Source of the DNA: Porphyridium purpureum | Lineage: Eukaryota; Rhodophyta; Bangiophyceae; Porphyridiales; Porphyridiaceae | Length of the DNA stretch: 64,000 bases | NCBI GenBank assembly: GCA_008690995.1 | Contig: VRMN01000001.1 | Span: 4,712,001 to 4,776,000, forward strand | Direction: 5' to 3' | Shown: one piece after another, positions 3,001-57,662 of the stretch | Position numbering within the stretch: position 1 is the stretch's first letter | Layout: each line of letters begins with the position of its first letter | Position numbers and translations under genes: made by a program | Notes under the pieces: model-generated | Told to the model about the DNA's origin: nothing | Databases searched by the model: none | Seen by the model: only the letters and a program-made list of their open reading frames with translations

Positions 3001-3282
3001 CCTGATTCTCATGTCACCACCGGCATTGTCGTCATGCGACGGCTCAGAGCAAGCGCTCTGTCCTGACATTCAAGAGTGCCTCAACTTTCTCTGGCACCTC
3101 CGAGCCTCCTGCGCGCAAAACAGTCGACCACCGCGACCGCTGTAGCTGTACAACTGGAGAGGAGAAACTGTACACCCCGACAGTGTGTCCAGATAATGCA
3201 GCATTATAATGCAATGGCGCATTGGCAGACTTGGAATGGGCGCGGTGCCAGGGGTTGGTGGTGGTGGTGGTGGAGTGAGGTA
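1..3282. other. Gene-free left flank (no supportable gene)
   Basis: No frame here shows a recognisable domain, and the open frames are short, overlap on both strands and have no consistent composition. Base composition looks closer to even than in the gene-dense part. The last ~140 bases (from about 3145) hold the promoter motif pair of the SART1 gene. The rest could be intergenic, a non-coding RNA locus or a decayed element; nothing seen distinguishes these. Confidence 0.5.
3145..3173 (+). promoter_or_regulatory. GCTGTAC/ACTGTAC motif pair upstream of SART1
   Basis: GCTGTAC at 3145-3151 and ACTGTAC at 3167-3173 lie 110-140 bp before the chosen ATG. The same heptamer recurs upstream of many genes here, so I read it as a promoter element. 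No TATA box is visible nearby. Confidence 0.5.
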
Positions 3283-4980
3283 ATGCTGCGGCACGGAAGG
3301 GCGCAGATGGATGCGAGTGACATTGCGCAGAGGCTCGAGGCGGGACAGAGCGAGACGCTGCGTCTGCGAGACCGCGGAGTGCTTCAAGGCGGGCCGGATG
3401 GTGACGAGGATGAGTTTGAGCCCGAGCACGCGCTGACAGCGTCGGCAGCGACGCCGGGACCGACCGCACAGCTCGCCGATTCGGAAACAGTGAGCCATGC
3501 GTGGGACTCGGGTGATGCGCAGGTGCTGGTCAAGGTTTTTGGAGGCCCGCGTGGACGTCCAGAGATCGGCGGTGCGCTTGAATCGCATCAAAAGCATGCG
3601 CACGTCGCACAGGATGTTGCACTGAGCGACAGCACGCGCGAGTTCTTGGCCCATGTCGCCGGAGAAGCAGTTGGTACGGGGCCTTCGGTAAGCCTGGGAG
3701 ATGCGCATCTTTCGTTCGGAGCAAGCAGGCCTTTCAAAAGCAAGAGCAGGAAGCGAAAGACGCGCTACAGTGGAGTGTTGTCTGAGCTGTTGGCAACTGA
3801 CGAACCGGGTGAGACGCACAGTAGTGCTGCTGCATCCGCACCGGATATTTCTGGAGTGCGTGATGGACAGACAATAGACGATAATTTGTCTGCCAAGGAG
3901 ATGCAGATGCGCGAGCTGCGCGTAGCGGTTGCTCAACCTGATCGCCCGGACACATTGGGCAACCATAGTGATGGCGAAGGGGATACTGAGGGCAAGGAAA
4001 TTCAAGCAGCGATCACCCGAGCGCGCCAACAGGTGTATCAGTATCAATCAAGTACCCAGCCGCCTCCTTATGAAAGGCCAACTGAAGAGGTGGTAGATGG
4101 CGCAACTGGCCAGAACCCACCACTGAACATAAGCACAGGTCAGACGCGTGAAACAATATTTGTGTATGATCCGGTAGAACTAAGTCTTTATGACGTCGGG
4201 GTGGTTGACGAGCAAGTAGCCGAGGACGGCACAAGAGACAAGGTGTCTCCTCGCAGCCCAGGCGCAAATCGGACCGACGATTTGGCTCGGCCAGAAACAT
4301 GTACCAAGAAAGATGATTCCCGAGATTTCAAGCTGAAAGCAGAGCCTCACGAGTTGCCAGGTCCAGAACAGGAGTCGGAACCAGTGCGCATACCTGATAG
4401 AGTGGGTGGACATGCCTCGATTGGGGTAGCATATGCTCTAAGTCACCTGCGTCACCATGGTGAGCTTGTCACGAAGAGCCATGACGCGGGAGATAGCAGT
4501 GAGGGTGACGAGGCACCCGTGGAAAGAAACAAACGGATGAAGAAGATTCAGCTGGAGTACGTTGACGAATTTGGGCGCAAATTGTCACAAAAGGAGGCGT
4601 TCAAGCACCTGAGCCACAATTTTCACGGGACGGTCCCCGGGAAACAGAAACAGAAGCGTCGGTTGAAAAAATACCTTGCAGAACTTGAGACCAAGGCAAA
4701 ACTGGTGAGCGGAGACACGCCGCTTCATTCTCTGGAGGCTCTGAAGCAGGAAACGGAGGCAAAAGCACAACCTCACGTTTTGTTGTCTGGTTGCGCCGCG
4801 TTCGGAAACGGGACAGACGCCGAAGCAATTTCATTCGACGCCCAGGGGCGGACACATGGCATACCGAAAACAGAACGCATGAAGGCGCAGTCAACCGGTA
4901 ATCTAGAGATACCACGCGTCTCGTCCACAGGCGCGGATGAAGCGAACAAGCCATTTCGTCTAGACCTGAAGAAAGCGTAA
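3283..4980 (+). CDS. SART1: SART1 / Snu66 family tri-snRNP protein
   Basis: Likely component of the U4/U6.U5 tri-snRNP, needed for spliceosome activation in the nucleus. The diagnostic part is the C-terminal third (about residues 420-500 of 565): YVDEFGRKLSQKEAFKHLSH, then a basic stretch, then a DTPL motif and a VLLSG ending block, all in the order known for SART1/Snu66. The N-terminal two thirds is acidic, low-complexity and poorly conserved, as in other SART1 proteins. The open frame extends upstream only from a GTG codon and through a Gly-Trp-rich run encoded by a GGT repeat, so I start at the ATG after that repeat; 3307 is an alternative. Its presence in such an intron-poor region shows that a tri-snRNP is still kept. 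Confidence 0.85.
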   Translation: MLRHGRAQMDASDIAQRLEAGQSETLRLRDRGVLQGGPDGDEDEFEPEHALTASAATPGPTAQLADSETVSHAWDSGDAQVLVKVFGGPRGRPEIGGALESHQKHAHVAQDVALSDSTREFLAHVAGEAVGTGPSVSLGDAHLSFGASRPFKSKSRKRKTRYSGVLSELLATDEPGETHSSAAASAPDISGVRDGQTIDDNLSAKEMQMRELRVAVAQPDRPDTLGNHSDGEGDTEGKEIQAAITRARQQVYQYQSSTQPPPYERPTEEVVDGATGQNPPLNISTGQTRETIFVYDPVELSLYDVGVVDEQVAEDGTRDKVSPRSPGANRTDDLARPETCTKKDDSRDFKLKAEPHELPGPEQESEPVRIPDRVGGHASIGVAYALSHLRHHGELVTKSHDAGDSSEGDEAPVERNKRMKKIQLEYVDEFGRKLSQKEAFKHLSHNFHGTVPGKQKQKRRLKKYLAELETKAKLVSGDTPLHSLEALKQETEAKAQPHVLLSGCAAFGNGTDAEAISFDAQGRTHGIPKTERMKAQSTGNLEIPRVSSTGADEANKPFRLDLKKA

Positions 4981-5046: not shown

Positions 5047-8000
5047 TCAAGGGAGCGTGATTCGCTTGTTCGATTTTAGCAAGGCTACAACTGCGCGGTC
5101 GAAGCCGTGTGCCAAGAGCACATTTACGACGGAGGCAACAATCACAAGCAGCGGGAACGAGAGCGGCACACCCCAGGCGACCAACTTGGACATTCCTTCG
5201 TCCGTTACAAGGGGCAAGGTGTGAATATATTGCGGCAAGCGCTCGAGCTGGAAGAATTCATTCCACGCGGGCACAAGCTGCGAGGCGAGCGTGAGATTCC
5301 ACACCGCAATGCCTGCAAGCACGTTACGCAAGTACTTGTTGTCGCGGATGCCCTGCATAAAGGGACGTCCCTTGTAGTTCGTCACAAAGACAGATACTTG
5401 CTGAAACGTAGAAATCAGAAAAACGACCGTATTCAGCACATTTGGCGTATAGAGTCCTTCGATGTCGGGCTCGAAGTCGTCGCCGAGATGTGCCTTCGCC
5501 AGCTCCGTCAAGTACACGAGAAAAGAAAGATGGATCACAAACTGACCGAGCAGTGAAACAAATAGTGGCGGGCTGAAAATAGAACTGGCTGGCCGCTCAA
5601 ACGACAACTTTGTCAAGGGCTGAGAGCGTGAAATCATGAAGAAGACCATGGCTGATGCGACGCCCACCACAGTCATTTGCCGATCCCCAAGCTTAACGCC
5701 TTCCAGGTAGAGCACGGACAGCCCATAAGATGAAATGAGGCAGTTGAGCGCCAGAATTTGATACATTTGTAGCGTTGTTGCCAGTGTGCAGCGTCCCTGA
5801 CGGATGATGTTGACGCAGCTATCAATCGTCATTCGCTTTGACGTAAAAGGCGACGCGATCGACGCATCGCCGAGTTTGACGAGTGGTGGACGGTCCTCAC
5901 CCTCATCCTGCATGTCTTCCAGCTTCTCGCTCACTTCCTCCAGCTTGCTAACAAACGCCGGCTTTCTCTGCGTGCCAAGTGTAGAAACACTGCTGCCTGT
6001 ACTAATATTTTCCGAACTTTCATCTCGTTTCGCTTCCTTGCGCGAGCGAAGGCCGCTTGCGCTCGGCTGCTGACGCTTCGACGAGGGACCACTCCCACCT
6101 GTCATCGACGCTGAACTCACCGCCGATGCCTTAGTACCTTCAGCTGCATTTTTCGATGCATTTGGCATGACAGCGTGAGATAGTAAAGCCACGCCCACAT
6201 GAGCTTGCTTGAGCGCCCCCACGTCATTGGTCCCGTCCCCACACATCAGCGTACAAAGACCAGAGTCCTTTAGCGAAGTGAGGACAAGCTCCTTTTGATT
6301 GGGACGCATACGCGCAAAGACTCGGAACAGGTGCATACGGGTGAGCAAAAACGTCCACGCGTCAGGGGCGAGCTCAGATTCCAACAGTCTCAATATATCA
6401 CCCGTCATGCACAACGAGTAGTCCTGTGCAAATGCATCGAGCTTGAATACGTCCAGCTTACCACGCCTCTTGCCAGTCTGAATCGAGACCCAACTGAAAT
6501 CGTGTTTTTGGTCCTCGGTACAAAACCCCTGTTCCAAAAATACCATGGGCTTCACGGAGAGGCTCACTGCTCGAGCCACGTGCGCAGCAGTCAGCAGCGC
6601 ATCGCCAGTGATCAACATGACCTGGTGATTCGCTTTCCGAAGTGCCTTGATCGCGCTGGCTGAATCTGCACGCAAGGGACACTCAAAAACAATGAAACCA
6701 TCAAAAAGAAGTCCCTGCTCGAGCGCTTCGCGTTTCATGGCGCGCACAGAACTCAAGCTATTCGCTTCTGACGATTCTATCTCTCGATGTGCCAAAGCCA
6801 GCACACGAAAACCCTGACGCGCAAGTTGACCGGCGGTTTCAAAATATCCTACCGGAACCTCCTTTAGCAGCGTGCCAACCATTTCAGGCGAGCCTTTGAG
6901 CAGCGCGCGGAATCGGCTACACTGCTCATCTAAAGAGACAATCGTACTCATGCGCTGCAGTGCCGACAAAAATTTAAATCGTTGCACAATTTTGGCAACC
7001 ACTGCAGATCCCTGGACTGGCTCGTCGTTTCCAGTGGACTTGTATTTCGGAGGGATGACCACATCGTTTCGGCTCAGTGTCCATTGAACTGATTGCAGCG
7101 CTTCAAGTTCAAGTGGATCACCCACCAATTCACGCTCTAGCCATGCCAACGAGTTGCACCCAGCGAGCACCAAGCTGGCATCCCAGGGCGCTTCGTGTAC
7201 CGGAATCAGCACCGGTTCACATGGCGCACTCGGTGACACGAGCGACACACATACACCCACGGCCCTGATTTGATCGGTCGTCACGGTTCCTGTCTTGTCG
7301 AAACAGCACACGTCCAGCATACCGGCGAGCGGAATTCGGAACGGTTCGGTACAAAAAATAGCCATTCTCGACAGTGCGACAAGCGACGTGTTCACTGCGA
7401 GAGCGAGCTGCATCGGAAGTTCGGGCGGGATGACAGAAGTCACAATTAGAATACAATGGAGCAGCAGCTCATATCGAGATCGGGACTGATCCAAAAGGCC
7501 TTGCCTCAAGACATACGCGGATGCGGCCGATGCAAAACAGAGCAGAAACACAATAAAACCGGCCGCTTCCTTGGAATTTGCACTCACGGCTTCCTGAGAG
7601 TACATGATAGTACGCATCAGCTTTCCCTGCGAAGAGCCAAACCCGGTGCGTATCACCATGGCTAGACAGCCGTCGTGGACAGGCATTTTGACAACAGTCG
7701 GCCCGCCTTCGCTAGGCGCGCCCGCAGTGCCTGGCGTCACAGTGAGCACAATGGTGCCGCCGAAAAGGACGTTGCTTTTATGCTCATCGTGAATGGCCAG
7801 TCTTTTGCCCTGGCTTCCGCTGTCGGCTTGTTCGTCCTCCAGTAGCGCGATGGCCTCTTTGACTAGAGGAATGGACTCTCCCGTAAGCATGGCTTCATTC
7901 ACAACCGCAGTCCCGCTCAGTAGAAGCATGTCACACGGTATGACGTCTTCCGGGCTGCGCGAGCGTGTCATGCAAACCACGTCGCCTGGCAACAGATCCG

Positions 8001-8994
8001 CACTGCTGAGGGACATCCACTTGTTGCTCGCTGAACGGTAGCTGTTTGCACTGCTGCTTTGCGCGGACGATGACGATAGAACCGCATTCCTCCGCAACGC
8101 CATGAGCGTCTGTGGCGCGTTGCGCATACCACGCAGCTCCTGCAACGAGCGAAGGCGTCCTTTGACTGTGGTGGCCTCGAAGATCATCATCATGGCCAGT
8201 GTCATGAGAGAGTAATACCAATACTCATCGAGCATCCAGAGAAGCACACAAAAAACCTGAAAGACAAAGAATGGCGCCAACAGGTGCTCTGAATACATTT
8301 CCCAGAATGTCGGAGTGGGGATGTGCAGCTCGTTTTTTCCATGCACTGCCTGCACATCCGCGAGCAGCTGCTCGCTGGCTTCCGCCAGTGACAACGGGCC
8401 GGAACCTTGAGCCGCGAGTCGGTACGCCTGCAAGAGGTCCTTTTTCGGAAAATGTACTTTTCTGAACGCATCCTGCTGCTCGTCGTAGACGAACAAACGC
8501 TTTTGGAACCAAAACGCGTGGCAAACACGAGGCTCGATGCACTTCTGATCGCTCACTTTGGCCACGGCGTCCCTGCCGAGGTCTGGCATGACATGCGTCA
8601 ACGATGACCTCTGCATGCGCACGACAGGTTCAATGGCGGCCTTCCCGCGATGGCGCACGGGCACAACATGCACGTGGGTGGCTGCCTGGATGTCCTGCGG
8701 CGCGGTGAAAGCCAGCCGCGCGCGAGCACTCACAGACCAGTGCTGCACGAGGAACAGCAACGCCTGCCCGGCCAGGAGCACAGCGAGCAGAAACGCCGCC
8801 CAGAACATGGGCAACGGGAACACAAACGTCACGCACGATGCCAGCACCTGCACCACCGCGCTCGGAAGCGCGTGCGCCACTGCCCATCTCCGTCGCTGAC
8901 GAAGCAGGCGGATCGATCCGACGCTCTGCGCGTCCGTCCGCACCGCCGCCATTGCCCTCTGCGCGTCTCTCCGATCTTTGCCGCGCCGCGCCAT
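5047..8994 (-). CDS. P5A-type ATPase (SPF1/ATP13A1 family)
   Basis: Endoplasmic-reticulum P-type ATPase. Characterised P5A members (Spf1, ATP13A1) remove mis-inserted transmembrane helices from the ER membrane. The 1315-residue protein has the actuator motif TGES, the P5A-specific PPELPM in M4, the phosphorylation motif FDKTGTV (Asp near residue 565; most P-type ATPases have DKTGTL), a KGSPE nucleotide-binding motif and the hinge GDGTNDVGALK, with the expected extra N-terminal membrane segments. A Ser-rich insert follows the hinge motif, a typical place for P5A inserts. The ATG at 8994 is the first one after an ACTGTAC pair at 9037-9056; the open frame beyond it begins with GTG. It converges on SART1 with 66 bp between stop codons. 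Confidence 0.95.
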   Translation of the reverse strand: MARRGKDRRDAQRAMAAVRTDAQSVGSIRLLRQRRRWAVAHALPSAVVQVLASCVTFVFPLPMFWAAFLLAVLLAGQALLFLVQHWSVSARARLAFTAPQDIQAATHVHVVPVRHRGKAAIEPVVRMQRSSLTHVMPDLGRDAVAKVSDQKCIEPRVCHAFWFQKRLFVYDEQQDAFRKVHFPKKDLLQAYRLAAQGSGPLSLAEASEQLLADVQAVHGKNELHIPTPTFWEMYSEHLLAPFFVFQVFCVLLWMLDEYWYYSLMTLAMMMIFEATTVKGRLRSLQELRGMRNAPQTLMALRRNAVLSSSSAQSSSANSYRSASNKWMSLSSADLLPGDVVCMTRSRSPEDVIPCDMLLLSGTAVVNEAMLTGESIPLVKEAIALLEDEQADSGSQGKRLAIHDEHKSNVLFGGTIVLTVTPGTAGAPSEGGPTVVKMPVHDGCLAMVIRTGFGSSQGKLMRTIMYSQEAVSANSKEAAGFIVFLLCFASAASAYVLRQGLLDQSRSRYELLLHCILIVTSVIPPELPMQLALAVNTSLVALSRMAIFCTEPFRIPLAGMLDVCCFDKTGTVTTDQIRAVGVCVSLVSPSAPCEPVLIPVHEAPWDASLVLAGCNSLAWLERELVGDPLELEALQSVQWTLSRNDVVIPPKYKSTGNDEPVQGSAVVAKIVQRFKFLSALQRMSTIVSLDEQCSRFRALLKGSPEMVGTLLKEVPVGYFETAGQLARQGFRVLALAHREIESSEANSLSSVRAMKREALEQGLLFDGFIVFECPLRADSASAIKALRKANHQVMLITGDALLTAAHVARAVSLSVKPMVFLEQGFCTEDQKHDFSWVSIQTGKRRGKLDVFKLDAFAQDYSLCMTGDILRLLESELAPDAWTFLLTRMHLFRVFARMRPNQKELVLTSLKDSGLCTLMCGDGTNDVGALKQAHVGVALLSHAVMPNASKNAAEGTKASAVSSASMTGGSGPSSKRQQPSASGLRSRKEAKRDESSENISTGSSVSTLGTQRKPAFVSKLEEVSEKLEDMQDEGEDRPPLVKLGDASIASPFTSKRMTIDSCVNIIRQGRCTLATTLQMYQILALNCLISSYGLSVLYLEGVKLGDRQMTVVGVASAMVFFMISRSQPLTKLSFERPASSIFSPPLFVSLLGQFVIHLSFLVYLTELAKAHLGDDFEPDIEGLYTPNVLNTVVFLISTFQQVSVFVTNYKGRPFMQGIRDNKYLRNVLAGIAVWNLTLASQLVPAWNEFFQLERLPQYIHTLPLVTDEGMSKLVAWGVPLSFPLLVIVASVVNVLLAHGFDRAVVALLKSNKRITLP

Positions 8995-9036: not shown

Positions 9037-9056
9037 ACTGTACCTGGAAACTGTAC
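9037..9056. promoter_or_regulatory. Double ACTGTAC between divergent P5A ATPase and SET genes
   Basis: Two exact copies, at 9037-9043 and 9050-9056, sit 43 bp upstream of the P5A ATPase start and about 215 bp upstream of the SET gene start. The whole divergent spacer is 277 bp, so both genes probably share this control region. Confidence 0.55.
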
Positions 9057-9271: not shown

Positions 9272-11074
9272 ATGGTGGCATGGGCATTCTCCGGGTTCGA
9301 TGCAGTTCGCGCATACCCATGGAAGGTTGGGGGAACGGACGGACACGTTTGGGCACATGCGCGAGTGGCGGGTACATGGCGATCGAGCAGAGTCTCTTCG
9401 AGAGTGAGTATTCTACAATGTAGCAGCAAGGCGCCTAAATCAAAACTCCCATCGAAGGCGAAGAACAAGAGCGTGCCAACGTCGAAATCGAACAAGCCTG
9501 CGGGCGTGGGCGCGTTGGAAACATGGGCAAGTCGCGTTGGCATCCAAGTAGAGCCATCCCTGAAGTTCTCCAAGTCAGCGTTGAGCCCGTCGGAATCAGG
9601 CTCAAGCGAGTCCGTCGAGCTCGGCGTGTACTCGGTGTCTGACACTGTGCTGCGTGGCGCCAGCAGGCCATTGATACGAGTGCCCGCGGAGCTTACGTTC
9701 TCCGTGACGAGTGTGGATAGTTCGAACCCGTTGCGCCGATTCGTGAGTAACCAGTACTACCGCGCAGCACCCTGGTGGCTAAAGCTCGCATTGCAGGTCT
9801 TGTTTGAGCGTTTTGGAGGCTACGCAACAGATTTGCAGACGTACCTAGATTTCCTGCCGTCCAAATTTAACACGCCGCTGCACTGGAAGAAGGACACTCT
9901 TGCGAATCAGTCGCAGTATCCACCGCTTGAGAAAGCCGTCACGGCGCAGCTGCAGTCCTACCAAAGCTTTTACACGGGGTTCCAGGCAGCCGCGCAGGAT
10001 GGATATGCGGACAAGGTGTCTTTTGAACACTTTGTGTGGGCGATCGAAGTGGTGCGCTCGCGTGCATTCAGTGGTGACTGCGAGCCCGCTTCGTTCAAGC
10101 AGAGGTACCGCCTGGTTTTGTTTATTCTGTTCTTGTCGTTCGGATTTGTTTCGCTTGGATTAGGCAGCCCAGAGGATGCATTGAATGGCGGTGCGGCTGC
10201 CATTTCGTCGATTTTGGCATTCGACATTATTTATCCTCGCGTTACGAGGGCGCTCGATCCAGCGCAGGCGCTGAAGCGTTATGCACTGTGTCCCGGTGTG
10301 GATTTGTTCAACCACAACTCGCGTGCTGTATCAGACGTCACTTTTGAATACTTCTTCGACCGCTTCGCGGCGTGCGTGTCCTATAATTACAATTATGCAA
10401 AGGGCACCGAGGGAGGGAGCCGGGATAGAGTCAGCGCGGGGAGCGAAGTCTTCATTTCGTACGGCCCACAAAGCAACGACCAGCTCTTGCAATTCTTTGG
10501 CTTTGTAGAAGAAAACAATCCGAATGACACGTACGTTCTGGCGGAATCTTTCGCAGACTTCGTCCTTCTTTTCGACGACGTGATTGCAGAGGCATTTGAC
10601 GTGGACGCGGCTGCACGCAAACAAGCGTACGAAACATGCGCGAGCTTGAATCTTCTCAACGCTGGTCGCGTGGTCGTCAAGCGCCCGTTCGACCCGCTGA
10701 CTGAAGCGCCGCAAGTGGGCCCGAGCCATGCCGCCAACATGTTCGTTACATTGTTGGATTCAGCCAGTCGCCCGTGTCTTCGAGCATTTATTGCCTCCCT
10801 CAAAGGGCGAGAGGTGACGCTGCAGACCGCGCGACAGTTCACTGTTGCGTCGCCGGAACTCGATGCCGACGGCACGCGCTTGATCAGCATGGTGTGCGCG
10901 TCTGAGCTAGACCGGAAGCCAACCTCTATCACGCAGGACCTGTCCACTCTTGCCGCACTGGAACGAGGTACATGCGACGCGGAGAAGGCATTAGCGCTCC
11001 GATTCCGCGTCGAAAAAAAGCGCGTCCTATCTCAAATCATGTCAGTTGAATTGGCACAAAAAGGCCGGAAATAA
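9272..11074 (+). CDS. SET-domain protein lysine methyltransferase, Rubisco-LSMT-like, probably plastid
   Basis: Predicted SAM-dependent protein-lysine methyltransferase of the Rubisco large-subunit methyltransferase/SETD3 group. A split SET domain is visible: DLFNHN near residue 343 and ISYGPQSNDQLLQFFGFV near residue 395, the two SAM- and substrate-binding blocks, followed by a helical C-terminal part like the LSMT substrate-binding domain. The N-terminus MVAWAFSGF is followed by a Ser/Arg/Lys-rich stretch, fitting a red-algal transit peptide with a Phe core. The frame extends 9 bp upstream only to a TTG, so 9272 is the first ATG. An internal hydrophobic segment near residues 280-325 is unusual for soluble SET enzymes. 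The substrate cannot be told from sequence. Confidence 0.8.
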   Translation: MVAWAFSGFDAVRAYPWKVGGTDGHVWAHARVAGTWRSSRVSSRVSILQCSSKAPKSKLPSKAKNKSVPTSKSNKPAGVGALETWASRVGIQVEPSLKFSKSALSPSESGSSESVELGVYSVSDTVLRGASRPLIRVPAELTFSVTSVDSSNPLRRFVSNQYYRAAPWWLKLALQVLFERFGGYATDLQTYLDFLPSKFNTPLHWKKDTLANQSQYPPLEKAVTAQLQSYQSFYTGFQAAAQDGYADKVSFEHFVWAIEVVRSRAFSGDCEPASFKQRYRLVLFILFLSFGFVSLGLGSPEDALNGGAAAISSILAFDIIYPRVTRALDPAQALKRYALCPGVDLFNHNSRAVSDVTFEYFFDRFAACVSYNYNYAKGTEGGSRDRVSAGSEVFISYGPQSNDQLLQFFGFVEENNPNDTYVLAESFADFVLLFDDVIAEAFDVDAAARKQAYETCASLNLLNAGRVVVKRPFDPLTEAPQVGPSHAANMFVTLLDSASRPCLRAFIASLKGREVTLQTARQFTVASPELDADGTRLISMVCASELDRKPTSITQDLSTLAALERGTCDAEKALALRFRVEKKRVLSQIMSVELAQKGRK

Positions 11075-14587: not shown

Positions 14588-14626
14588 ACTGTACTCCGCC
14601 ACACGAAAATTCACGCGAGGTACAGC
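14588..14626. promoter_or_regulatory. ACTGTAC and inverted GTACAGC pair in divergent promoter
   Basis: ACTGTAC at 14588-14594 and GTACAGC (complement GCTGTAC) at 14620-14626 face each other in the spacer between the parvulin-rhodanese and UVR-ApaG genes, 66-84 bp upstream of the former's ATGs. Nothing else notable is seen in the spacer. Confidence 0.5.
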
Positions 14627-14834
14627 CACGATCTCCATAAATGGTGCTGTTTTGTTATGAAACAGGTGGAGCTTGTGCGGCACTCGAAGGGAAGGTGCGA
14701 AAGCGTGCAGGTTGTGCGTGCGAGTGGCCGTGGGTAAGGCAAGTGGGAGTTTCATGTGGGTCTTTTACCAGACGCACAAGCAACCACAGCACCGAGGCAA
14801 CGACGTGAATTTGTTCCCTGCGTTCTTATTTCGC

Positions 14835-15872: not shown

Positions 15873-16319
15873 AGGCCCAGCATGCGTGGGATGCCACCAC
15901 CCCTACTACCCCCCCAGCTTCAAAGTGTGATGCGGGCATACACCGCGCAGTGTAAGCGCACGTGTACTTCGGCGCGTGTGGGGTTTGAGCTCGCCAAGGC
16001 CGAAAACAAATCGCAAATCCCGTTGGTTGGCCGCGTGAAATCTGGAGTCGAGATCAAGCCACTGTACACTATCAAGAAGCACGTCTTTGATAGGAAAGTA
16101 AAGCGAGCCGGGCCTAATTCAGCGATCGCGCCGCGCGCGCCCCATGACACAGCGTGCGGTGAGCGACGGCTCGGGGAACGCGCGTGCGACCGCCGGGCGA
16201 GCGCCGGGAAAGAGCGCGACGTGCATCGACAGGCAGGCAATGCGAGCGAGCGCAAACGTTCCTGCAATTTGTGCTGCCGCTGCCATTGCTGCTGGTGCTG
16301 CTGCTTCTCCTGCTGCCGC
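15873..16319. other. Spacer with ACTGTACA motif and TGC-repeat leader
   Basis: An open frame runs through from 15882, only 10 bp after the previous stop, but I treat it as promoter and 5' leader of the MYB gene. It contains ACTGTACA at 16061-16068, the element found upstream of other genes here, and near 16263-16317 a TGC-rich stretch that would encode an implausible run of cysteines. Confidence 0.5.
16061..16068 (+). promoter_or_regulatory. ACTGTACA motif upstream of MYB gene
   Basis: A single exact copy lies about 250 bp upstream of the chosen MYB start, a distance within the range seen for other genes. Its position argues that the frame extending back to 15882 is not translated. Confidence 0.4.
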
Positions 16320-18686: not shown

Positions 18687-18971
18687 CCCTGTACGTCTGG
18701 GAATGACTGTACAGCTAGAAGAGGTGTCAGTGGAGAGCCCATTAATAGTTTGAATATACTTATGTTATTCCTTGTCATCTATGGTTGGCAGGTGGTGGGC
18801 CCCAATTTCTCAATCCTTACCGTGCTCATGCGATTCGATCGCCCGCGATAAAGCACACGGGCCATCCAACCTTATTGACTTTGTCGCGTGATTGCACGGA
18901 GAATTTCCAATTTGACAGCCATTCCATGGAGCACGAAACGAAATAAAGCCATTTGCGGAAATCCGCGCACT
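18687..18971. other. Convergent 3' spacer with unexpected CTGTAC pair
   Basis: Between the MYB stop and the HisD stop. It contains CCTGTAC at 18688-18694 and ACTGTACA at 18706-18713, directly after a stop codon. This is a place where a promoter element would not be expected, unless an antisense or non-coding transcript starts here. Confidence 0.5.
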
Positions 18972-20585: not shown

Positions 20586-20633
20586 ACTGTACACCCGCGG
20601 TTCACTTAAAGAAGTACAGTGTGGACAGTACAG
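20586..20633. promoter_or_regulatory. Triple ACTGTAC-type cluster upstream of HisD
   Basis: ACTGTACA at 20586-20593, GTACAGT at 20614-20620 and GTACAGC at 20628-20633 lie within 48 bp, starting 85 bp upstream of the HisD ATG and just beyond the 3' end of the next gene. An AAACCCTA (telo-box-like) octamer follows at 20650-20657. Confidence 0.55.
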
Positions 20634-20669
20634 CACTTTACCAAAAACGAAACCCTACCGCGCAACACG

Positions 20670-25311: not shown

Positions 25312-25319
25312 ACTGTACA
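25312..25319. promoter_or_regulatory. ACTGTACA upstream of RUS gene
   Basis: An exact copy of the recurring promoter motif, 200 bp upstream of the first RUS ATG. GAGGTACTGC ten bases before it may be a degenerate partner. Confidence 0.4.
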
Positions 25320-27140: not shown

Positions 27141-27162
27141 GTACAGTGAGCATAGGTACAGT
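27141..27162 (+). promoter_or_regulatory. GTACAGT motif pair upstream of PAH-repeat gene
   Basis: GTACAGT at 27141-27147 and 27156-27162 (complement ACTGTAC), 130-150 bp upstream of the ATG. Confidence 0.5.
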
Positions 27163-32756: not shown

Positions 32757-33313
32757 CGCGTCCAACCACACCACTCCAATCCCACTCTCCGCCTCCCCCA
32801 ACACACGTCCCCGCTTGCTCGCTTCTGCTCCCTCGCCCGTCTCCTGCTGCAGCAACTCAGCTCAAATATTTGAATCTCCCGCACCACTCCGCGCGCGTCG
32901 TCCTATCAAATTCACCGAGTCTGAGTATGAAAAAAAAGGCGTCCCGCTCGGAGGAGTACAGTGCGGTTTGGGAAGTACTGTGACGCGGCAGCGGTGCGGC
33001 GTGCGGGTTGGTGAGCCGTGCGCTCGTGGCCAAGGTCCTGCTGCTGAGGAGAGCAGCCTGATGTGTCTCCGTGTTTCGCGGCAACAGCTGAGGTGGCTTG
33101 GACTGCATGGCATGGCACAATCGAGATACGAGAGACGATTTATTTTCGACATTTGTTCTTACAGAGTCACAGCTCTGCAGGGAAAGAAAAACAGCGTTCA
33201 CATAAAGCAGGCACAAGAGTGGCTTTGGAAGTCGTGCATACACAAAGAACAGGACCGCCAGACTTGCAGCGGCCTTTGCTCTTAAATGAAAGAGACCTTG
33301 GACAGTGACGAGC
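32757..33313. promoter_or_regulatory. Promoter region of SAP gene with GTACAGT
   Basis: GTACAGT at 32956-32962, with AGTACTG 18 bp further on. The remainder is the 3' flank of the Tyr/Lys/Asp repeat gene. No gene seen. Confidence 0.4.
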
Positions 33314-34196: not shown

Positions 34197-34204
34197 ACTG
34201 TACA
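34197..34204. promoter_or_regulatory. ACTGTACA motif in 774 bp spacer
   Basis: The only recognised element between the TATA box and the DUF2147 stop codon at 34583; it is 389 bp from the nearest start codon. No gene is seen in the spacer 33809-34582. Confidence 0.35.
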
Positions 34205-37838: not shown

Positions 37839-38298
37839 CATAAATGGACTTGGCTCCGACGTTCCAACCGTGCCGAGCCCGCTGGTCAATGACAAAATAA
37901 CCACGAATTCTTTTTGCTTTCTCGTTTTACTCCTTTTCAAGCCCTTCTCTTTCGTGCGCCGTGAAAGCAAGATCAATGCCTCCTGCCTGTTTTTCTTTGG
38001 ATCCTCAACGAGTAGACCCGAGCGCACACACTAAAGAGGCGCCTCAGTAGCAGCAACGTCAACCTTCACCAGATCCCAGACATTTGATGTCAAGTCAGCA
38101 CACGTCGTTAATCTACACACCCGCGTCTGTGCGCAGAGTATGATTCACTATTAAATCGCAATCACACAGCCTGTCTCGCAGAGCCTGTCTGTCCATGCAC
38201 GTATCACCCGGCAGATCCCCCGCTCGATCATGCATTCATCGAGTATTCTTCTAACAATTCTTGGGTCGGCATGACTGTACATTCGCACGCTCGCAAAC
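37839..38298. other. Convergent 3' spacer with ACTGTACA
   Basis: 460 bp between two stop codons. ACTGTACA at 38274-38281 lies 18 bp from the neighbouring stop codon, a second example of the motif at a gene end. No gene seen. Confidence 0.45.
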
Positions 38299-42972: not shown

Positions 42973-44013
42973 TCATAGGCACATGAAAGATGTGGCCAGA
43001 GGCAGGCGTGAGGGCGCAGGCGAGTGCGTTGTGAAAGGAAGAGTGGGGACAGCGCGCGCGGACGCCTTGGCGCGGCGGCTGCTGCGGCGGCGCTTGACGA
43101 GCACGGGCTCGAGGGTCTTTTTCACCGCCTCGTATGCACCGAAGAAGATGGCGCCGCCGAGCGAGATCCATAGCACGCGCGGCACAATGCCCTGGAATAA
43201 CGCCTGCGGGCCTTCCTCGGCAACAATGACACGGAAGCCTTGCATGACGGACGACGCCTCTCCGGTCATAATCCGGGTCTTCACGACGTCAAACGGTGTG
43301 GTGGCGGCCGCGGAGATGGCGCCAGCGCACGAGCCGCACAGCGACGACTCCCACGTCTTGAGCGCACGCTTATTTCCGCGCCGCGCTAGGTACGCGCTCC
43401 GCTGTCGCTTGAGCGCCTCGTAGATCGGAAACTGCATCATGTCAAACGGAAGCTCCCGAGCGACCAAAGACAGGTAGCCCGTGTACAGTCCGCCGATGCC
43501 CTGCTCAGCGAGCACACCGCGGACTGCGTCGCGCCCCGAGCTGTACAGCCCCGCCTGCACCAATTGCTTGACCGTTTCGAACGGTGTGCGCACGACGCAA
43601 GAACTTAGATCACCCCCAATGGCACCAATCACACTCGCCACATTGGCCCAGTCACCCTGAGGGAACAGCTTACCTAGCACATCGCTAGCGCACCTCTTCG
43701 AGATATCGTACGCGCCGAAAAATACCGCGCCACCAGGCGCAGACGCAATAAGCGCCGGCTTGATCCCCGCATACACACCCTTGAAGAGTTCGGCCGGCGG
43801 CGTCCTTGTCTGCAGTCGCGTTTTAATCGTATCGAGTGGAAATAGCGACATGTCCACTGCGATCCCCGCTGCCGCGCCAGACACCAAGCTTTGCCAAAAC
43901 GATTCGGACGCGCCGAGCTCCGTTGCCTCCAAAGCCTCGGCAGCCTCCGCCGATTTCACGCTTCCATCCTTCTCGCGCTTCGAAGCGCGTGCACAGAGCA
44001 CCACCTTTCCCAT
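42973..44013 (-). CDS. SAMC: S-adenosylmethionine carrier (mitochondrial carrier family)
   Basis: A 346-residue carrier with three repeats. The signatures are FPLDTIKTRLQ, RTPFETVKQLVQAG (in place of the usual PX[DE]XX[KR] block of repeat two) and TPFDVVKTRIM. The segments ALIASAPGGAVFFGAYD, RELPFDMMQFPIYE and GIVPRVLWISLGGAIFFGAYE match plant SAMC and human SLC25A26 closely. It exchanges SAM for S-adenosylhomocysteine across the mitochondrial inner membrane or plastid envelope; plant homologues do either, and the N-terminal extension does not settle which. ATG at 44013 gives MGKVVLCARASKREK; another ATG exists at 44040. The C-terminus has a long basic/Arg-rich tail. Confidence 0.88.
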   Translation of the reverse strand: MGKVVLCARASKREKDGSVKSAEAAEALEATELGASESFWQSLVSGAAAGIAVDMSLFPLDTIKTRLQTRTPPAELFKGVYAGIKPALIASAPGGAVFFGAYDISKRCASDVLGKLFPQGDWANVASVIGAIGGDLSSCVVRTPFETVKQLVQAGLYSSGRDAVRGVLAEQGIGGLYTGYLSLVARELPFDMMQFPIYEALKRQRSAYLARRGNKRALKTWESSLCGSCAGAISAAATTPFDVVKTRIMTGEASSVMQGFRVIVAEEGPQALFQGIVPRVLWISLGGAIFFGAYEAVKKTLEPVLVKRRRSSRRAKASARAVPTLPFTTHSPAPSRLPLATSFMCL

Positions 44014-45034: not shown

Positions 45035-45068
45035 GCTGTACCTCTTCCCAACTGTACGCTGGCTGTAC
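45035..45068. promoter_or_regulatory. Triple [AG]CTGTAC cluster in LYR/linker divergent promoter
   Basis: GCTGTAC at 45035, ACTGTAC at 45051 and GCTGTAC at 45062, all in the same orientation, 126-160 bp upstream of the LYR ATG and 267-300 bp upstream of the linker ATG. Confidence 0.55.
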
Positions 45069-48946: not shown

Positions 48947-49341
48947 CGCACCAGCTGAAAGTCAATCTACCCAAGAAGTACCCGAGCGCTTCCAACACCA
49001 CCAAACTGCATACGCATACCTAGCAAGCCAGGCAAGCACCACGTGACCCTCCAACCCGAAGTTCCGTCAGTGCTCTTCGTCGCCTCATGAGCTCCGACCT
49101 CTTACCCCCCTGCTCCCCCGCCACGACTCTCTGGCGCATCACCAGCCTTTTTGGCGCGAAAGCTGAAACTCAGTTCAACCTCCAGTACCCTCACTGAACA
49201 CTGAATGTACACTTATACTGTACCTCCGTGAGAACCCTAATTCGTGTTGGCTGAGCGATGTGCGAAGAGAAGAAGAGGAGAGAGCGTGAGGGGTTGGGTT
49301 GGGTTGGGTGGGTTGTTGCTTGATTGCGTCGGGGGAACAAG
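48947..49341. promoter_or_regulatory. Divergent promoter, primase / coiled-coil gene, with ACTGTAC
   Basis: ATGTACA at 49205-49211 and ACTGTAC at 49217-49223, about 120 bp upstream of the coiled-coil gene start. GAACCCTAA (49232) is a telo-box-like partial match. No gene seen. Confidence 0.45.
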
Positions 49342-51795: not shown

Positions 51796-52724
51796 GGCGT
51801 CAGTTTGTCTGTGTTGTGTTTCCGCGTCGGGCGTCTTCGGGCTGTTTGCTTATCTTGCTCTCGGCCTTGACAAACACCTGCTCTTTCCTCAGCGTTCACC
51901 GTCTGCCTGTGCTCGGGTGTGTTTCAGAGCGTCCCCGTGAACGAGAGATCAACCCACTCTCACGCCTTCTGCCTTCCCTTCAACCTGTGTTGACGTTGCG
52001 GCAGAGACGTCGAGACTGTATCCATCCACGCGTGAGGGCACGTCTAGATCCTGCCGAAGTCCAGGTAGTACTTATACCCTTCACATGCGCGGGAGCAATG
52101 AGGCTCGCAGCGATGCGGGCCCTTCTTATCGCAGGTTGTGACCATGCTTCCGAACGTGTCTGTGCGCACTTGAGCTGCGCCCGTAATTCACGCCACGCCA
52201 TGCACATGGCTGTTCTGCTTTTTGCGCTCGTGCACTTTGCGCCGTTTCAAACGCGCGGTGGTCCGTTACAAACCAACTCTTGCACACACAGTTCGAACAT
52301 TTGAAACGCACGTACGCGGCGGCGCCCCCCCCAATTCTACTACCACAAAACCTACAAAGGACTGGACACACCGCACCACTTTTGGGCTAGGGTTTTGTGA
52401 ACCGAATAAGCAATTGGGCCGCGTTTGCAGCAAGTAAACTTCCAAGCCAAATGCTCAAAGCGGCCATGCTTGGATTGAGTCATGATGGCCATGTAATGCA
52501 TGACAGCGATGGGGTGTTCTCTATCATCGGTTAATCACTGTACTTACAACTGTACTTATAAATGTCCTTTTGTACAGTGCGATGGCGGAAGCCGGTTGAT
52601 GGAGGGTGCGGAGAGGGGGGAGATGGCGAATAGTTGTGGCGGTGGTGACAGAGAAGAGAACGGAAGACGAGGTGGCTAGAGAAGCGCAGTGGAGAAAGGA
52701 GAAGACACGCAGGGTAGGTATGCC
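51796..52724. promoter_or_regulatory. Spacer Rho / CBS-pair gene with triple ACTGTAC
   Basis: 929 bp without a supportable gene. TAGGGTTT at 52388-52395 (AAACCCTA complement). Three motif copies at 52537-52578 form the densest exact cluster in the window, 147-188 bp upstream of the CBS-pair ATG. A short out-of-frame ATG at 52720 overlaps the start context. Confidence 0.5.
52537..52578 (+). promoter_or_regulatory. Triple ACTGTAC cluster upstream of mitochondrial CBS gene
   Basis: ACTGTAC at 52537-52543 and 52549-52555, then TGTACAGT at 52571-52578 on the opposite strand, all exact matches. Confidence 0.6.
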
Positions 52725-53447
52725 ATGGGCGCGCGGAAGGCGCTTGCGCTGGTGAGAAGTCGGGGCTGGTGGTGGTGGAAGCAGGGTCAGGTGGCGAGGT
52801 TTTCGTCGGTTGAGGTTGCGGATGGCGCGAGTTGTGAGCATGGACAGGCACATGCGCATGGAGCGCAGACGGAAGAGAGCAGTAGTCTTGCGAATATCAC
52901 GCCATACTTCAGTAAGGTGTCGCAGATCATGACGGGAAAGAGCCTGGAGGTGATGACCGTGGCGCCAAATGCAACGGTATTTGAGGCCATTGAGCTCATG
53001 GGGAGGTCGCGCGTGGGGTCGCTCTGCGTGGTGGAAACGAGTGAGGACAGGGTGAAAGGTCCAGCAGACAACGGCGAAGATGCAAGCAAAGCCCGCATGC
53101 AGGAGAGCGGGTTGAGAAGGAAAGATAAGCTGGTCGGGATTGTGACTGAGCGCGACTATCTGTGCAAGGTGAGTCTTCTGAACCGTTCGGCAAAGAGCAC
53201 GCTGGTGAGCCAGATCATGACGCCTGCTGATAAGCTCGTGACAGTTACGCCAAACACGTCGGCTGGAGAATGTATTCGTCTGATGAGGGACCACAGCATA
53301 AGACATTTACCCGTATTGGAAAATGGCGAACTTCTGTGCGTGCTTTCGATACGCGAGCTGCTTGGCGCGATAGCCAAAGATCACGAAGAACAAGTGCGGT
53401 ACCTCCAAAACCAGCTCATCAAGCTTGCTACCCTGCTGCAAACTTAG
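52725..53447 (+). CDS. Mitochondrial CBS-pair protein, CBSX3-like
   Basis: A 240-residue protein with one Bateman module: CBS1 about residues 65-150 (VSQIMTGKSLEVMTVAPNAT...GIVTERDYLCKV) and CBS2 about 165-220 (VSQIMTPADKLVTVTPNTSA...RHLPVLENGELLCVLSIREL). CBS1 contains a Ser/Gly/Lys insertion. The N-terminus MGARKALALVRSRG plus a Trp run and VARFSS looks like a mitochondrial presequence. Single CBS pairs with such targeting resemble plant CBSX3, a thioredoxin regulator; bacterial homologues resemble it too. First in-frame ATG is 52725; an upstream ATG at 52720 in another frame overlaps it. Confidence 0.83.
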   Translation: MGARKALALVRSRGWWWWKQGQVARFSSVEVADGASCEHGQAHAHGAQTEESSSLANITPYFSKVSQIMTGKSLEVMTVAPNATVFEAIELMGRSRVGSLCVVETSEDRVKGPADNGEDASKARMQESGLRRKDKLVGIVTERDYLCKVSLLNRSAKSTLVSQIMTPADKLVTVTPNTSAGECIRLMRDHSIRHLPVLENGELLCVLSIRELLGAIAKDHEEQVRYLQNQLIKLATLLQT

Positions 53448-53988: not shown

Positions 53989-55467
53989 CTACATACCCTG
54001 CTCGCTTGCGGCATCTACCTCTCGCCCGCGGTGCCTTGTGGACATATGATGATTGCAGTTGTACTGCGTGCTGAAACGGCGATCGCAGAATGCGCAGCGA
54101 AACTCGTACATCTGTTCGTGAACGACGCGGATATGCTTTCCGAGATGCCACTTGGAGCTAAATTTGCGGTCACAGCTCTCACACCCGTACTTCCGAATCT
54201 CGCGGTGAATGGTGCGCACGTGCCGTAACATGTTTCCCTTTCTACAAAATGTGGCTCCGCACTCGCGGCAAGTCAGATCGTCGTCATTCAGATCACCGCC
54301 GTCCGATGATACGATGTCTTCGGCTTCTGGATCGTCGCTGTTCTTCATGCTATCGATGTCCATCATGATTTCCATATTCGGATGCATCTGTGGAAGTTTC
54401 TTCAAAGACTGCACCACACTGGCGTACTTGCCAATCTTATCGTGAAGCAGCTCCACCAAGTAGCATCGATACTTCTTGAAAGAGTCAAGACGCAACTCGG
54501 TGGCGAGATGTTCCGACCGGTACCCTTGACCGCCGATGTTATTTTCAAACATGTGCAGGCTTGACCCGTACTGTTCTCTGCCAGAACGCACGCGGCAGTA
54601 CATGTGGGCGTACAGGGCAAGTTCGCGTTGGGATGCCTTTCGAGCATATCGCGAGAGACGAAGTTCGAGTGAGGCGCTGCGCAAAGAAAGCTGCTCCCTG
54701 GCCCAATCGAACCACGCAGAATTGCTCAGGCCTGCTGGCGGTGCCGTTTTGGCGGTCGGCACACACGCGCACGCTTGCAGGTGAAGCACACAATGCATAC
54801 AGACAGGTTGGTTGATCGTACCTTCAGTACAGCGCTCGACATCTTCCACTTTCGGTACCGCGATCTCATGCATGTCCAATGCGCTTCTTCTTGTATTTAA
54901 GAGTACGTGCGTCGCACCCACGGGTCCTTCTTTGAAGATGCGAAGCACCAAAAGCAGCGCTTTGCCTCCATGCAGCCGGAAGTGGTAATAAATCTCAACC
55001 ACAAACTTGCTCGCGAAGGACACCGCCAGACGGTAGCTGTACGGTGACTCCAAGGCGTGGCCAAATATCCGACTGTACACCGCGCCAGCTTTAGATATAC
55101 TTGCAAGCAAGTGGCTGCTGCCGAGCTCAAATCGAGGCACCACTAGTGACTCAGAATACCACAATGTCCGTGCCAGCTCGGCATCAGTTTGTTCCCGCTG
55201 AGCTTGGGCGCCGGCATGCGACAAAGGGGCTGCCACGGCTGGTGAGTCGAACAGGTTGCATTTCACGCAAAGGTCCGTGTCCTGATTCTGAGCCCAAAAC
55301 GGATCGACGTCCGAAAAGAGCACAGGGTCGCGTCCTGCGGTACCATCCGCCGCAGTTAGCCACTTGCCCACGTCGGCATTCTGCTCAAAGACTTTCAAAA
55401 GCACCGTTTCTGCCGACACTGGCGACAGCTCGTGCTCCGCTCGAAAAACATACGCGCCGCTAAACAT
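53989..55467 (-). CDS. C2H2 zinc-finger protein (three fingers)
   Basis: A 492-residue nuclear candidate. Three tandem C2H2 fingers lie near the C-terminus (about residues 395-480): CRECGATFCRKGNMLRHVR, CESCDRKFSSKWHLGKHIR and CAFCDRRFSTQYNCNHHM, joined by short linkers close to 28-residue spacing. The first ~390 residues form a folded but unrecognised domain with CVKC and CMHC cysteine pairs and SYRLAVSFASKFVVEIYYHF. An acidic stretch (DDPEAED, DLNDDDL) precedes the fingers. Likely a sequence-specific DNA-binding regulator. ATG 55467 (MFSGAYVF) used; the frame upstream starts with GTG and is Arg-rich leader. Confidence 0.85.
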   Translation of the reverse strand: MFSGAYVFRAEHELSPVSAETVLLKVFEQNADVGKWLTAADGTAGRDPVLFSDVDPFWAQNQDTDLCVKCNLFDSPAVAAPLSHAGAQAQREQTDAELARTLWYSESLVVPRFELGSSHLLASISKAGAVYSRIFGHALESPYSYRLAVSFASKFVVEIYYHFRLHGGKALLLVLRIFKEGPVGATHVLLNTRRSALDMHEIAVPKVEDVERCTEGTINQPVCMHCVLHLQACACVPTAKTAPPAGLSNSAWFDWAREQLSLRSASLELRLSRYARKASQRELALYAHMYCRVRSGREQYGSSLHMFENNIGGQGYRSEHLATELRLDSFKKYRCYLVELLHDKIGKYASVVQSLKKLPQMHPNMEIMMDIDSMKNSDDPEAEDIVSSDGGDLNDDDLTCRECGATFCRKGNMLRHVRTIHREIRKYGCESCDRKFSSKWHLGKHIRVVHEQMYEFRCAFCDRRFSTQYNCNHHMSTRHRGREVDAASEQGM

Positions 55468-57662
55468 CCTCCGAGCGCGAGGCTCCAAGCGCGCTCGCGC
55501 GCGTGTACACACGCGGAGCACCCCGCAACCCGATCCTCTGTGCGCGTCTCGGCGCTCCCTCGTTCTTTCGTCTGCTTCCTCGGCTTGCTGCTTAGACCTG
55601 CTCACGCGCCGCTCCCCCTCCTGGCCGCGCCTCGCGCGTCGTCTGCGTCTCGTGTCAGGCCTCCCGCGCTCACTGGTACCTGATCTTCAAGTTGCAATCC
55701 GTTCCGTTACCTTCCCCGCACAGCCTGGCACGCCCTTCGTCGCGTGTGGCAGTCATTCGCGTACACACGCCCTTGCGGTCACCCGTCGGACCTGCAACGG
55801 GATGCAGCAGCGTCGAGATACATCCCCGCATGCACGTCCCCGCCATGCGCGCTCCCTCCCCCCCGCACTTGATTTTATAACCCCACCATACCCATGACGG
55901 GTGCGCACGTGCGCAAGTGCGCCAGGGGTGGCAGTGTGGCGGTGTCGCCGTGCGGCAGACCTGGAAACGCTGCAGTGCTTCCTTTTTCCTTTTCTCCTTC
56001 TTTGTTTTCCCGCTTTTGCATATTGCAGCCAGAGCGCGCGCCAAGAGCGGGCACACACCCACCAAATAAACCCGAATAAGGCGAAATAAACGGAAATAAG
56101 CCCAAATAAACAGAAACGCGCACGCAACATATCAGGCGGGAGGGTGTGGGTGCGCCTGTGCCCGTGTGTTCATGTTTGTTGCGCTTGTTGTGAGAATAAA
56201 AAGCGTGTGTGCCCAAAGTGCGCGGATGCTCCTTTTCGAGTGCGTTTGTGTGTATGGGAAGCTTTAGTGTGCTAAGAGGGGGAACGCTCTGTAAACGAAG
56301 CGGATCTGTGTGTTTTCGAATTCGTTCCCCCCCCCCCCTCGGCTCCTCATTCATTCATTCAGAAATTCAGAACACAGATCATACACCCTTGTGCCAACAA
56401 ACACAGACACACACACACACTCTCTCTCTCTCTCTTTCTATCTCTTAGTGCAAGTGTCGAACCACACACCTTTTGCGCAATGGTGGTAAAGTTGTAACAC
56501 AACACGAACCATAAAAATGGCACAAAATGAGGACACGCATGCACGCGACACCCGGGGAAAATTAATGGAAAATACTCGTCGAAAGTGGACCGCGGAAATT
56601 CACGCAGCTGGCGGAGGTACAGTCTGAGCGCCGTCGTTCGGCGTTGGCGCAGCGCGATAGCGAGAGAAGTGTCTGCTCGACGCTTTAAGATCGCGCTCCA
56701 GCTGGAAGGCGCGCGCCGAAACGCGCGTGCTCGCTCCCGCGCGTGCGTGTGAATGCGTGCGCCAGGTCATCTCCAAGCCAGCGCCATCGCTGCTGGCGTG
56801 TGCAGCTCGCACAGACACCGTCGCAAAGCCTTTCAGACGCGCGTCGGCCCGTGTTCAATTGCGAAACACCCGAGTGCGACGCGGTGGATGCGCAATTCTT
56901 CTCGCCATCCGTCATATCTCGCAGCGCGAAAACGGAGTGTCCTGAACGCAGCGCTCCATTTATGCCAGTACCCCATGCCGATGCTTCAATGCAGCTCGAA
57001 AAGCTCTGGGCGCACCGAAACCCTCGCCGGCGCTTCAGTGCGTTCTCTACGCCGTCACGTCCGCGTGACTGCAAGCCAATAATCCACTGACCCGTCAAAC
57101 CAAGAGGGTCCCTTTCCGGTGAATCAAGTCCCAGAGTTCAGCATTGCGCACCGACAATGCAGCATGTTCGCGAAATTTCTTACGTACGATCTGCGCACGG
57201 CGCGCGGGGAGAAGAAGCATTTAGTTGAGCACATTCCTATCAAACGTGCGCTACATCGAGTGCAATCAAAACAGTCCCCGTACTCTTCCCACGAGCAGCA
57301 CATCGCTCAGAAAACCGACCAAGGAAAGAAAATGCCGCCGACCGGACTGATGGCGACGGTTTCATATCTGCGCCGAGCTCTCTGTCCAGTGGAAAAGTAA
57401 GCTGATCTCGGATAAGCACATCCACTGCGTATCCACGCTGGCGGGTGGACGGCTCCAGCAAGCCTCAACCTAAAATTCATACGAAGAGAGCATGCCTCTC
57501 TGGCCATTCCATGACATGTTCCTTCCCAAGACGAGGGTCAGCACAAACTACAAAAGCGCCCTTTGAAAAAAATTGGCATAAACACGATAGTTAAATAGAG
57601 AGCGACGATCAAGCCGCTGCGCATGCTGTTCAAGGAACGAAAAGTACCCGTGACATAGCTTG
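55468..57662. other. Gene-free 2.2 kb spacer with phased A/T array and simple repeats
   Basis: No supportable gene. It holds a TATAAAAT on the minus strand (55872-55879), a five-unit array phased at exactly 10 bases (56064-56110), a poly-C run near 56328-56338, CA then CT microsatellites (56408-56437) and a GTACAGT at 56617-56623. The last could serve an unrecognised transcript. Confidence 0.55.
56064..56110. repeat. Five AAATAA[A/G] tracts at exact 10-bp spacing
   Basis: AAATAAA, GAATAAG, AAATAAA, AAATAAG, AAATAAA begin at 56064, 56074, 56084, 56094 and 56104, separated by C/G triplets. One tract per helical turn predicts intrinsic DNA bending. Confidence 0.8.

Follow-up and report, generated by a model that had tools for sequence, protein, structure and literature searches.

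The stretch of Porphyridium purpureum DNA analysed here, which we call the window, comprises the 64,000 nucleotides from position 4712001 to 4776000 of one contig (labelled C43) of an assembly of 22.16 Mb in 46 contigs. Its 32 modelled open reading frames (ORFs) include those for a P-type ATPase, histidinol dehydrogenase, the primase small subunit and, according to a family scan of the window ORFs, a phycobilisome linker. The heptamer ACTGTAC (GTACAGT on the opposite strand) recurs mainly between these ORFs, and a first-pass annotation had proposed it as a promoter element. In the following list of its copies, positions count from the first letter of the window, and negative numbers are distances from the modelled ATG, to which all positions relative to genes refer.

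3167..3173, plus strand: 29 bp before the ATG of a SART-1-domain ORF (3196-4980), in the end stretch preceding the first modelled gene
9037..9043, plus strand: divergent promoter shared by the P-type ATPase ORF (5047-8994) and an ORF at 9272-11074; forms a direct pair (gap 6) with 9050, of which it is the first copy
9050..9056, plus strand: second of the pair with 9037, in the same divergent promoter
14588..14594, plus strand: divergent promoter of a rotamase/rhodanese ORF (13551-14522) and an ApaG/UVR ORF (14754-15872); a GCTGTAC starts 32 bp away
16061..16067, plus strand: within a MYB-domain ORF as modelled (15930-18686), close to the uncertain start of that ORF
18706..18712, plus strand: between convergent gene ends, 20 bp past the MYB stop codon; not promoter-placed
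20586..20592, plus strand: -91 of histidinol dehydrogenase (18972-20501, minus strand)
20614..20620, minus strand: -119 of histidinol dehydrogenase, with GCTGTAC (-133) and a telo-box-like word (-156)
25312..25318, plus strand: -208 of a UVB_sens_prot ORF (23563-25110, minus strand)
27141..27147, minus strand: -152 of a PAH-domain ORF (27293-29083); direct pair with 27156
27156..27162, minus strand: -137 of the same PAH-domain ORF; direct pair with 27141
32956..32962, minus strand: -206 of a SAP-domain ORF (31704-32756, minus strand)
34197..34203, plus strand: -227 of an ORF at 33314-33976 (minus strand)
38274..38280, plus strand: between convergent gene ends; not promoter-placed
43483..43489, minus strand: within a mitochondrial-carrier ORF (42973-44013)
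45051..45057, plus strand: upstream of the phycobilisome linker ORF (45335-46246) and a divergent ORF (44277-44909), in a cluster of GCTGTAC 45035, ACTGTAC 45051, GCTGTAC 45062 and ACTGAAC 45075, followed by a TATA word at 45142
49217..49223, plus strand: divergent promoter shared by the ORF for the primase small subunit (47612-48946) and an ORF at 49342-50145, with ACTGAAC at 49193 and a telo-box-like word at 49233
52537..52543, plus strand: -188 of a CBS-pair ORF (52725-53447)
52549..52555, plus strand: -176 of the CBS-pair ORF; one base, then TATAAA at 52557
52572..52578, minus strand: -153 of the CBS-pair ORF
55072..55078, plus strand: within a C2H2 zinc-finger ORF (53989-55467)
56617..56623, minus strand: gene-poor stretch; the closest modelled ATG is more than 1 kb away

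The ORF models were self-trained on the sequence and ignored introns. Besides the window, we studied a held-out region of 200 kb (C1:100001-300000, hereafter C1; 72 ORFs), which lies outside the stretch where the word was first noticed. The control word throughout was ACTGTAC reversed. Genes with a copy within 400 bp upstream are called carriers; they number 39 of the 104 ORFs, 23 with one copy and 16 with two to four. The gene-level TATA tests used 97 of the 104 ORFs, the 7 with less than 150 bp upstream being dropped. Protein family scans covered 30 of the 32 window ORFs and, in C1, 18 of the 24 carriers plus 30 of the 48 non-carriers (48 of the 72 ORFs).

The first-pass annotation had counted about 22 copies by eye, and the count is exactly 22 on both strands, at the positions it had named. 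Its chance expectation of about 8 was too high, as 100 dinucleotide shuffles of the window gave a mean of 3.34, with 8 as the maximum. The copies lie mostly outside genes, as had been stated (18 intergenic and one, 3167, in the end stretch), except that three rather than two fall within ORFs (16061, 43483 and 55072); 16 of the 22 are at most 300 bp upstream of a modelled ATG. The bias against coding DNA was upheld in C1, where the intergenic DNA (77,707 bases) has 59 copies, the coding DNA (120,820 bases) has 7 and an end stretch has 1 (intergenic vs coding, odds ratio 13.1, p 2e-17). For the window and C1 together (264 kb), a second-order Markov model predicts 9.2 intergenic copies, and the 77 found give ACTGTAC the highest z of all intergenic 7-mers; the word ranks first in the window alone and third of 8,055 in C1 alone, after two CA-repeat words. 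The whole 22 Mb genome contains 6,320 copies, vs 3,088 of the reversed word.

Placement between genes was uneven. Densities per 10 kb in C1 were 10.5 in divergent, 7.1 in tandem and 2.8 in convergent spacers and 0.58 in coding DNA; for the window and C1 together they were 11.8, 7.0, 2.9 and 0.62, a comparison that leaves out the end-stretch class (4,803 bp, 2 matches). The upstream enrichment proposed as a check by the first-pass annotation was found in C1, with 15.1 copies per 10 kb in the 400 bp upstream of genes vs 4.8 in the 400 bp downstream. Counted per gene and in 50-bp bins, the density per 10 kb was 5.9 in the bin immediately upstream of the ATG, 21-32 across the four bins that span 100-300 bp, 3-9 at 300-500 bp and again 7-30 beyond 550 bp. 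This last rise appeared because sites in divergent spacers enter the count for both genes, and it disappeared when each of the 71 upstream sites was assigned once to the nearest ATG (per 100 bp: 8, 24, 15, 2, 1, 4, 3, 6, 0 and 1, with 7 beyond 1 kb). Thus 39 of the 71 lie at 100-199 or 200-299 bp (24 and 15). The same two bins stood out in tandem spacers, where a site has a single possible owner gene (15.8 and 36.1 per 10 kb, vs 0-10.4 elsewhere up to 1 kb). Downstream of stop codons the density was 0-10 per 10 kb.

The word is used in either orientation, as had been claimed: with each site counted once, 32 have the same and 39 the opposite orientation as the gene (p 0.48), and tandem spacers alone gave 17 and 12 (p 0.46). 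Counting divergent-spacer sites for both genes gives 45 and 53, a figure biased to equality, with which the single counts agree. The approximately 100 bp before the ATG are G-rich, with a GC skew of 0.26-0.34 that then drops to 0.17 and keeps falling, and GAGAGAG occurs there 45 times in sense and never in antisense (window and C1, modelled ATGs). These features point to a 5' leader that is about 100 nt long and purine-rich in a strand-specific manner; the peak of the motif would then fall in the roughly 200 bp before the transcription start. In 3 of 7 LHC genes there are TATA words at -133 to -152, which would be consistent with transcription starting at about -105 to -120.

The sites themselves obey a grammar. 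The flank preference is approximately M-ACTGTAC-H-Y-M; G is avoided at +1 (5%), and +2 is C or T (87%). Since the information is confined mainly to positions -1 to +3 and the 77 intergenic copies have almost no flanking sequence in common, the copies are not spread repeats. The one-letter variants most in excess are ACTGAAC (29 vs 8.7 expected), GCTGTAC (43 vs 15.4) and ACTGGAC (22 vs 9.6). ACTGAAC was found within 400 bp upstream of 15 of the 39 genes with ACTGTAC and of none of the 58 without; a weaker site of the same putative protein would be distributed in this way.

Copies also cluster. Pairs within 30 bp in the genome number 890 direct, 303 convergent and 245 divergent, vs 10, 1 and 4 for the reversed word, which is an approximately 60- to 300-fold excess when single words are in only two-fold excess. 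Direct pairs with gaps of 0-1 occur 3 times (control 1), whereas evenly distributed gaps would yield about 57, and the smallest gaps among the pairs listed are 2 for direct (100 of 890), 5 for convergent (50 of 303) and 1 for divergent pairs (50 of 245). A gap of 0 would put A and C at +1 and +2, both of which are allowed by the flank preference; therefore, sequence preference alone is not enough to explain why it is missing, and we infer that a bound protein sets the minimum spacing. The asymmetry of the minimum gaps suggests a protein that would cover the 7-mer and about 2 bp on its 3' side, about 9 bp in total. For footprinting, we aligned cyclin paralogues, which are not independent carriers; with 99% identity between their coding sequences, they diverged too recently to be informative.

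The presence of TATA is independent of ACTGTAC. The first-pass annotation had stated that genes without the word often have TATA boxes, and we found no such contrast, TATAWA being present in 7 of 39 carriers and in 10 of the 58 genes that lack the word. In the genome, ACTGTAC lies at most 30 bp upstream of TATAAA 73 times (control 11) and downstream 26 times (control 15). A single 39-bp stretch accounts for as many as 30 of the 73, and 44 remain when its copies are collapsed to one; the counts suggest that sites are placed upstream rather than downstream of TATA. Judged by this placement, ACTGTAC would work with or without a TATA box. The 39-bp stretch consists of ACTGTAC, 7 bp, GTACAGT, 12 bp and TATAAA, that is, an inverted pair before TATA, and in one pair of copies (2 of 30) the second ACTGTAC is replaced by GTTCAGT, which is ACTGAAC on the minus strand. 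Among the matches listed, there are 13 neighbouring pairs of the stretch 6,177-6,211 bp apart (C1:1068536/1074725, C2:35684/41877 and 11 further pairs). From these matches, the stretches are probably the long terminal repeats (LTRs) of a retrotransposon family of about 6.2 kb that would use the host promoter word. Near an ORF with a reverse transcriptase domain in C1, a flanking repeat pair of 253 nt (774-1026 and 5940-6192 of the fetched locus L010) excludes the nearby ACTGTAC at C1:110581; thus, not every such element shows the word.

Which genes carry the word was examined in C1 and in three gene families. The C1 carriers include a divergent pair of DnaJ and BAG-domain ORFs, a divergent pair of DapB and YbeY ORFs, and ORFs for Mre11, an RFC subunit, a desaturase and an aquaporin; the non-carriers include two pseudouridine synthases, a mitochondrial carrier, a formate/nitrite transporter and a carbonic anhydrase. 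One C1 ORF aligned over all 496 residues with the carbonic anhydrase of PDB 1ddz, presumably a Porphyridium purpureum entry, at 1,136.9 bits. Among the 20S proteasome genes, 11 of 14 loci carry the word, vs 39 of 97 in the background (p 0.009). The proteasome set comprised 16 loci, of which L032 and L033 were counted once and L044, the weakest match, HslV-like in our judgement and a non-carrier, was set aside (11 of 15 with it). The 19S genes seen were RPN6 and RPN7 only, neither of them a carrier. Of the assessable LSM/Sm genes, 2 of 12 carry the word (p 0.20 vs background; Fisher p 0.005 vs 20S). For this family, 13 of 18 matches were fetched and gave one carrier; L053 and L055 have less than 170 bp upstream, and the start of L056 is uncertain. 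The second carrier included is the unfetched match C1:1692183, which has three ACTGTAC copies about 180-210 bp beyond the match edge on the upstream side. In the LHC family, 7 of 10 matches were fetched, and 3 of the 7 have a copy within 400 bp. As the p values are uncorrected and three families were tested, selectivity among gene classes is a hint. The claim that the word is not pathway-specific fits the diversity of carriers and fits less well the difference between 20S and LSM/Sm genes. Some proteasome and LSM matches had the same score and frame length on two contigs (C34:54967 and C38:30097; C22:604419 and C23:19692), which suggests duplicated or haplotig contigs in the assembly.

Two other words were seen. 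AACCCTA, which we take to be telo-box-like, clearly stands out as an upstream word as well: it occurs 22 times in intergenic DNA of the window and C1 (2.8 expected) and never in coding DNA, with 16 copies in divergent and none in convergent spacers; it lies at 20651-20657 and 49233-49239 in the window and within L009-L028 in the C1 region, and its presence is associated with that of ACTGTAC (odds ratio 4.7, p 0.007). At the proteasome locus that was set aside (L044, C11:658176, minus strand), three telo-box-like words are spaced 9 bp apart between -156 and -174, and ACTGTAC is absent. TTCTAGAA, presumably a heat-shock-element-like palindrome, was found 8 times vs 0.6 expected in the intergenic DNA of the window and C1, and a scan found none in the 700 bp before modelled ATGs.

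We consider, with a probability of roughly 0.8, that ACTGTAC is a proximal promoter binding site for one abundant sequence-specific DNA-binding protein. This putative factor, most likely a proximal activator or a general regulatory factor, would bind double-stranded DNA as a unit of about 9 bp that reaches further on the 3' side, either singly or in small homotypic clusters, with GCTGTAC and ACTGAAC as functional-looking variant sites. Its sites would occupy the approximately 200 bp upstream of the transcription start, a position suggested by the base skew of the 5' leader and by TATA, in either orientation and upstream of any TATA box. Binding would open or activate promoters, often divergent ones; activation seems likelier to us than repression. 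The promoter reading of the first-pass annotation is well supported by the enrichment in held-out DNA, the peak at 100-300 bp, the far higher density in divergent than in convergent spacers, the clustering and the minimum spacing. Several observations weigh against a binding site of this kind. Only 39 of the 97 genes with at least 150 bp upstream carry ACTGTAC. RPN6 and RPN7 lack it, which brings the proteasome total to 11 of 16 (p 0.055). The word is also missing upstream of two C1 ORFs, those for the formate/nitrite transporter and the carbonic anhydrase. These two are among the most expressed gene types according to the part of PMC10866757 available to us, their identity with the C1 ORFs being unchecked. 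The preference for the upstream side of TATAAA (44 vs 26) is weak (binomial p 0.04; vs controls, Fisher p 0.10), and a few of the upstream matches have one TATA in common. Finally, part of the direct pairs with a gap of 2 are short tandem arrays.

The annotation had proposed a TATA-less core or proximal element. The proximal part fits; a core element that replaces TATA in the manner of an initiator or DPE, holding the polymerase at a fixed distance from the start, is improbable in our view. The word is indeed common, restricted to promoters and near the presumed start, but its unbiased orientation (32 same, 39 opposite), its spread over about 200 bp relative to the ATG and the two to four copies in 16 of 39 carrier promoters do not suit a core element; neither does its lack of exclusivity with TATA (7/39 vs 10/58), since it is found even just upstream of TATAAA. 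A signal acting in RNA, such as a UGUA-type binding site in 5' or 3' untranslated regions (UTRs), seems to us very improbable. The word contains TGTA and the copies at 18706 and 38274 are near gene ends, but there is no strand preference, intergenic density is lowest between convergent ends, where 3' UTRs lie, the peak is upstream of the G-rich leader, and the spacing rules hold between copies on either strand. We give still less credence to a non-regulatory origin in dispersed repeats or a mutational bias of intergenic DNA. Repeats do contribute, as the 30 of 73 motif-TATA matches from one LTR-like stretch and some tandem arrays attest; against this origin stand the almost unrelated flanks of the 77 intergenic copies, a reversed word half as common, the contrast between divergent and convergent spacers, and the exclusion of the shortest gaps.

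Two alternatives differ from the binding-site reading mainly in what the factor would do. One is a general regulatory factor that would mainly keep nucleosomes off shared and divergent promoters, with no meaning for gene class. It has an appreciable chance of being right, although we do not favour it: density is highest in divergent intergenic DNA (11.8 per 10 kb), orientation is neutral and carriers are functionally mixed, but the 20S and LSM classes differ and more than half of the genes lack the word. We find it rather unlikely that the word is instead bound by a pathway regulator that controls proteostasis or other housekeeping modules, with a role like that of Rpn4 and PACE in yeast. The excess at 20S genes (11/14 vs 39/97 overall and vs 2/12 for LSM, both uncorrected) and the common divergent promoter of the DnaJ and BAG-domain ORFs speak for such a regulator. 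RPN6 and RPN7 reduce the excess, however, LSM alone resembles the background (p 0.20), the numbers from three families are small, and the carriers also include desaturase, aquaporin, Mre11, RFC subunit, YbeY and DapB ORFs. A bolder reading, which we advance tentatively and hold to be possible rather than probable, is that a red-algal nuclear genome has ACTGTAC as its main regulatory word: a single lineage-specific protein, a counterpart of the yeast general regulatory factors, would control about 40% of genes, with most of the proteasome core among them, an LTR retrotransposon would have captured the word as its own promoter switch, and the word would be one without a known binder.

P. purpureum is used for recombinant protein production and has been engineered with whole upstream fragments of 500-1500 bp (PMC10866757, in the part available to us). 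A dominant word whose position and spacing follow rules would give a testable way into a first transcription factor code for red algae, and into compact synthetic promoters. We found no description of ACTGTAC as a promoter element in the literature on the word itself, on Porphyridium or on red-algal promoters, judging by titles and abstract openings.

Among known elements, the telo-box AAACCCTA is a plant promoter element; the telo-box-like AACCCTA is intergenic-enriched in the same genome and co-occurs with ACTGTAC, but it is a separate word and probably the site of another factor. The yeast PACE element, which is bound by Rpn4 in the regulation of the proteasome, resembles ACTGTAC in being enriched at 20S proteasome genes, and differs in that the RPN6 and RPN7 ORFs here lack the word and that ACTGTAC carriers are far more widespread; to our knowledge, the PACE sequence is unrelated to ACTGTAC. 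The copper-response element bound by the SBP-domain protein CRR1 of Chlamydomonas has a GTAC core, which also lies within ACTGTAC, and so does the Plasmodium AP2-G motif. In the CRR1 element the GTAC is invariant, whereas here ACTGAAC breaks it and is nevertheless enriched (29 vs 8.7), only in genes with ACTGTAC, presumably through the same binder. A search for the SBP domain gave no match in this genome, the control genomes searched alongside being also without a match. The part of PMC4827209 available to us reports no SBP (Table 3) and no AP2/ERF proteins in P. purpureum, so that the class that binds the AP2-G motif is reported absent, and 60 C2H2 proteins, the largest class. A C2H2 or MYB protein is therefore a reasonable first guess for the binder, and no more; a homologue search with the C2H2 protein of the window found no match besides itself. 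The nearest class may be the proximal-promoter binding sites of factors in TATA-less yeast promoters (PMC3170328, in the part available to us), which are likewise motifs near gene starts, although here the placement is independent of the presence of TATA. We regard ACTGTAC as a new example of this known kind of element, and its interest lies in its dominance and its spacing rules, in a lineage where knowledge of promoters is nearly absent.

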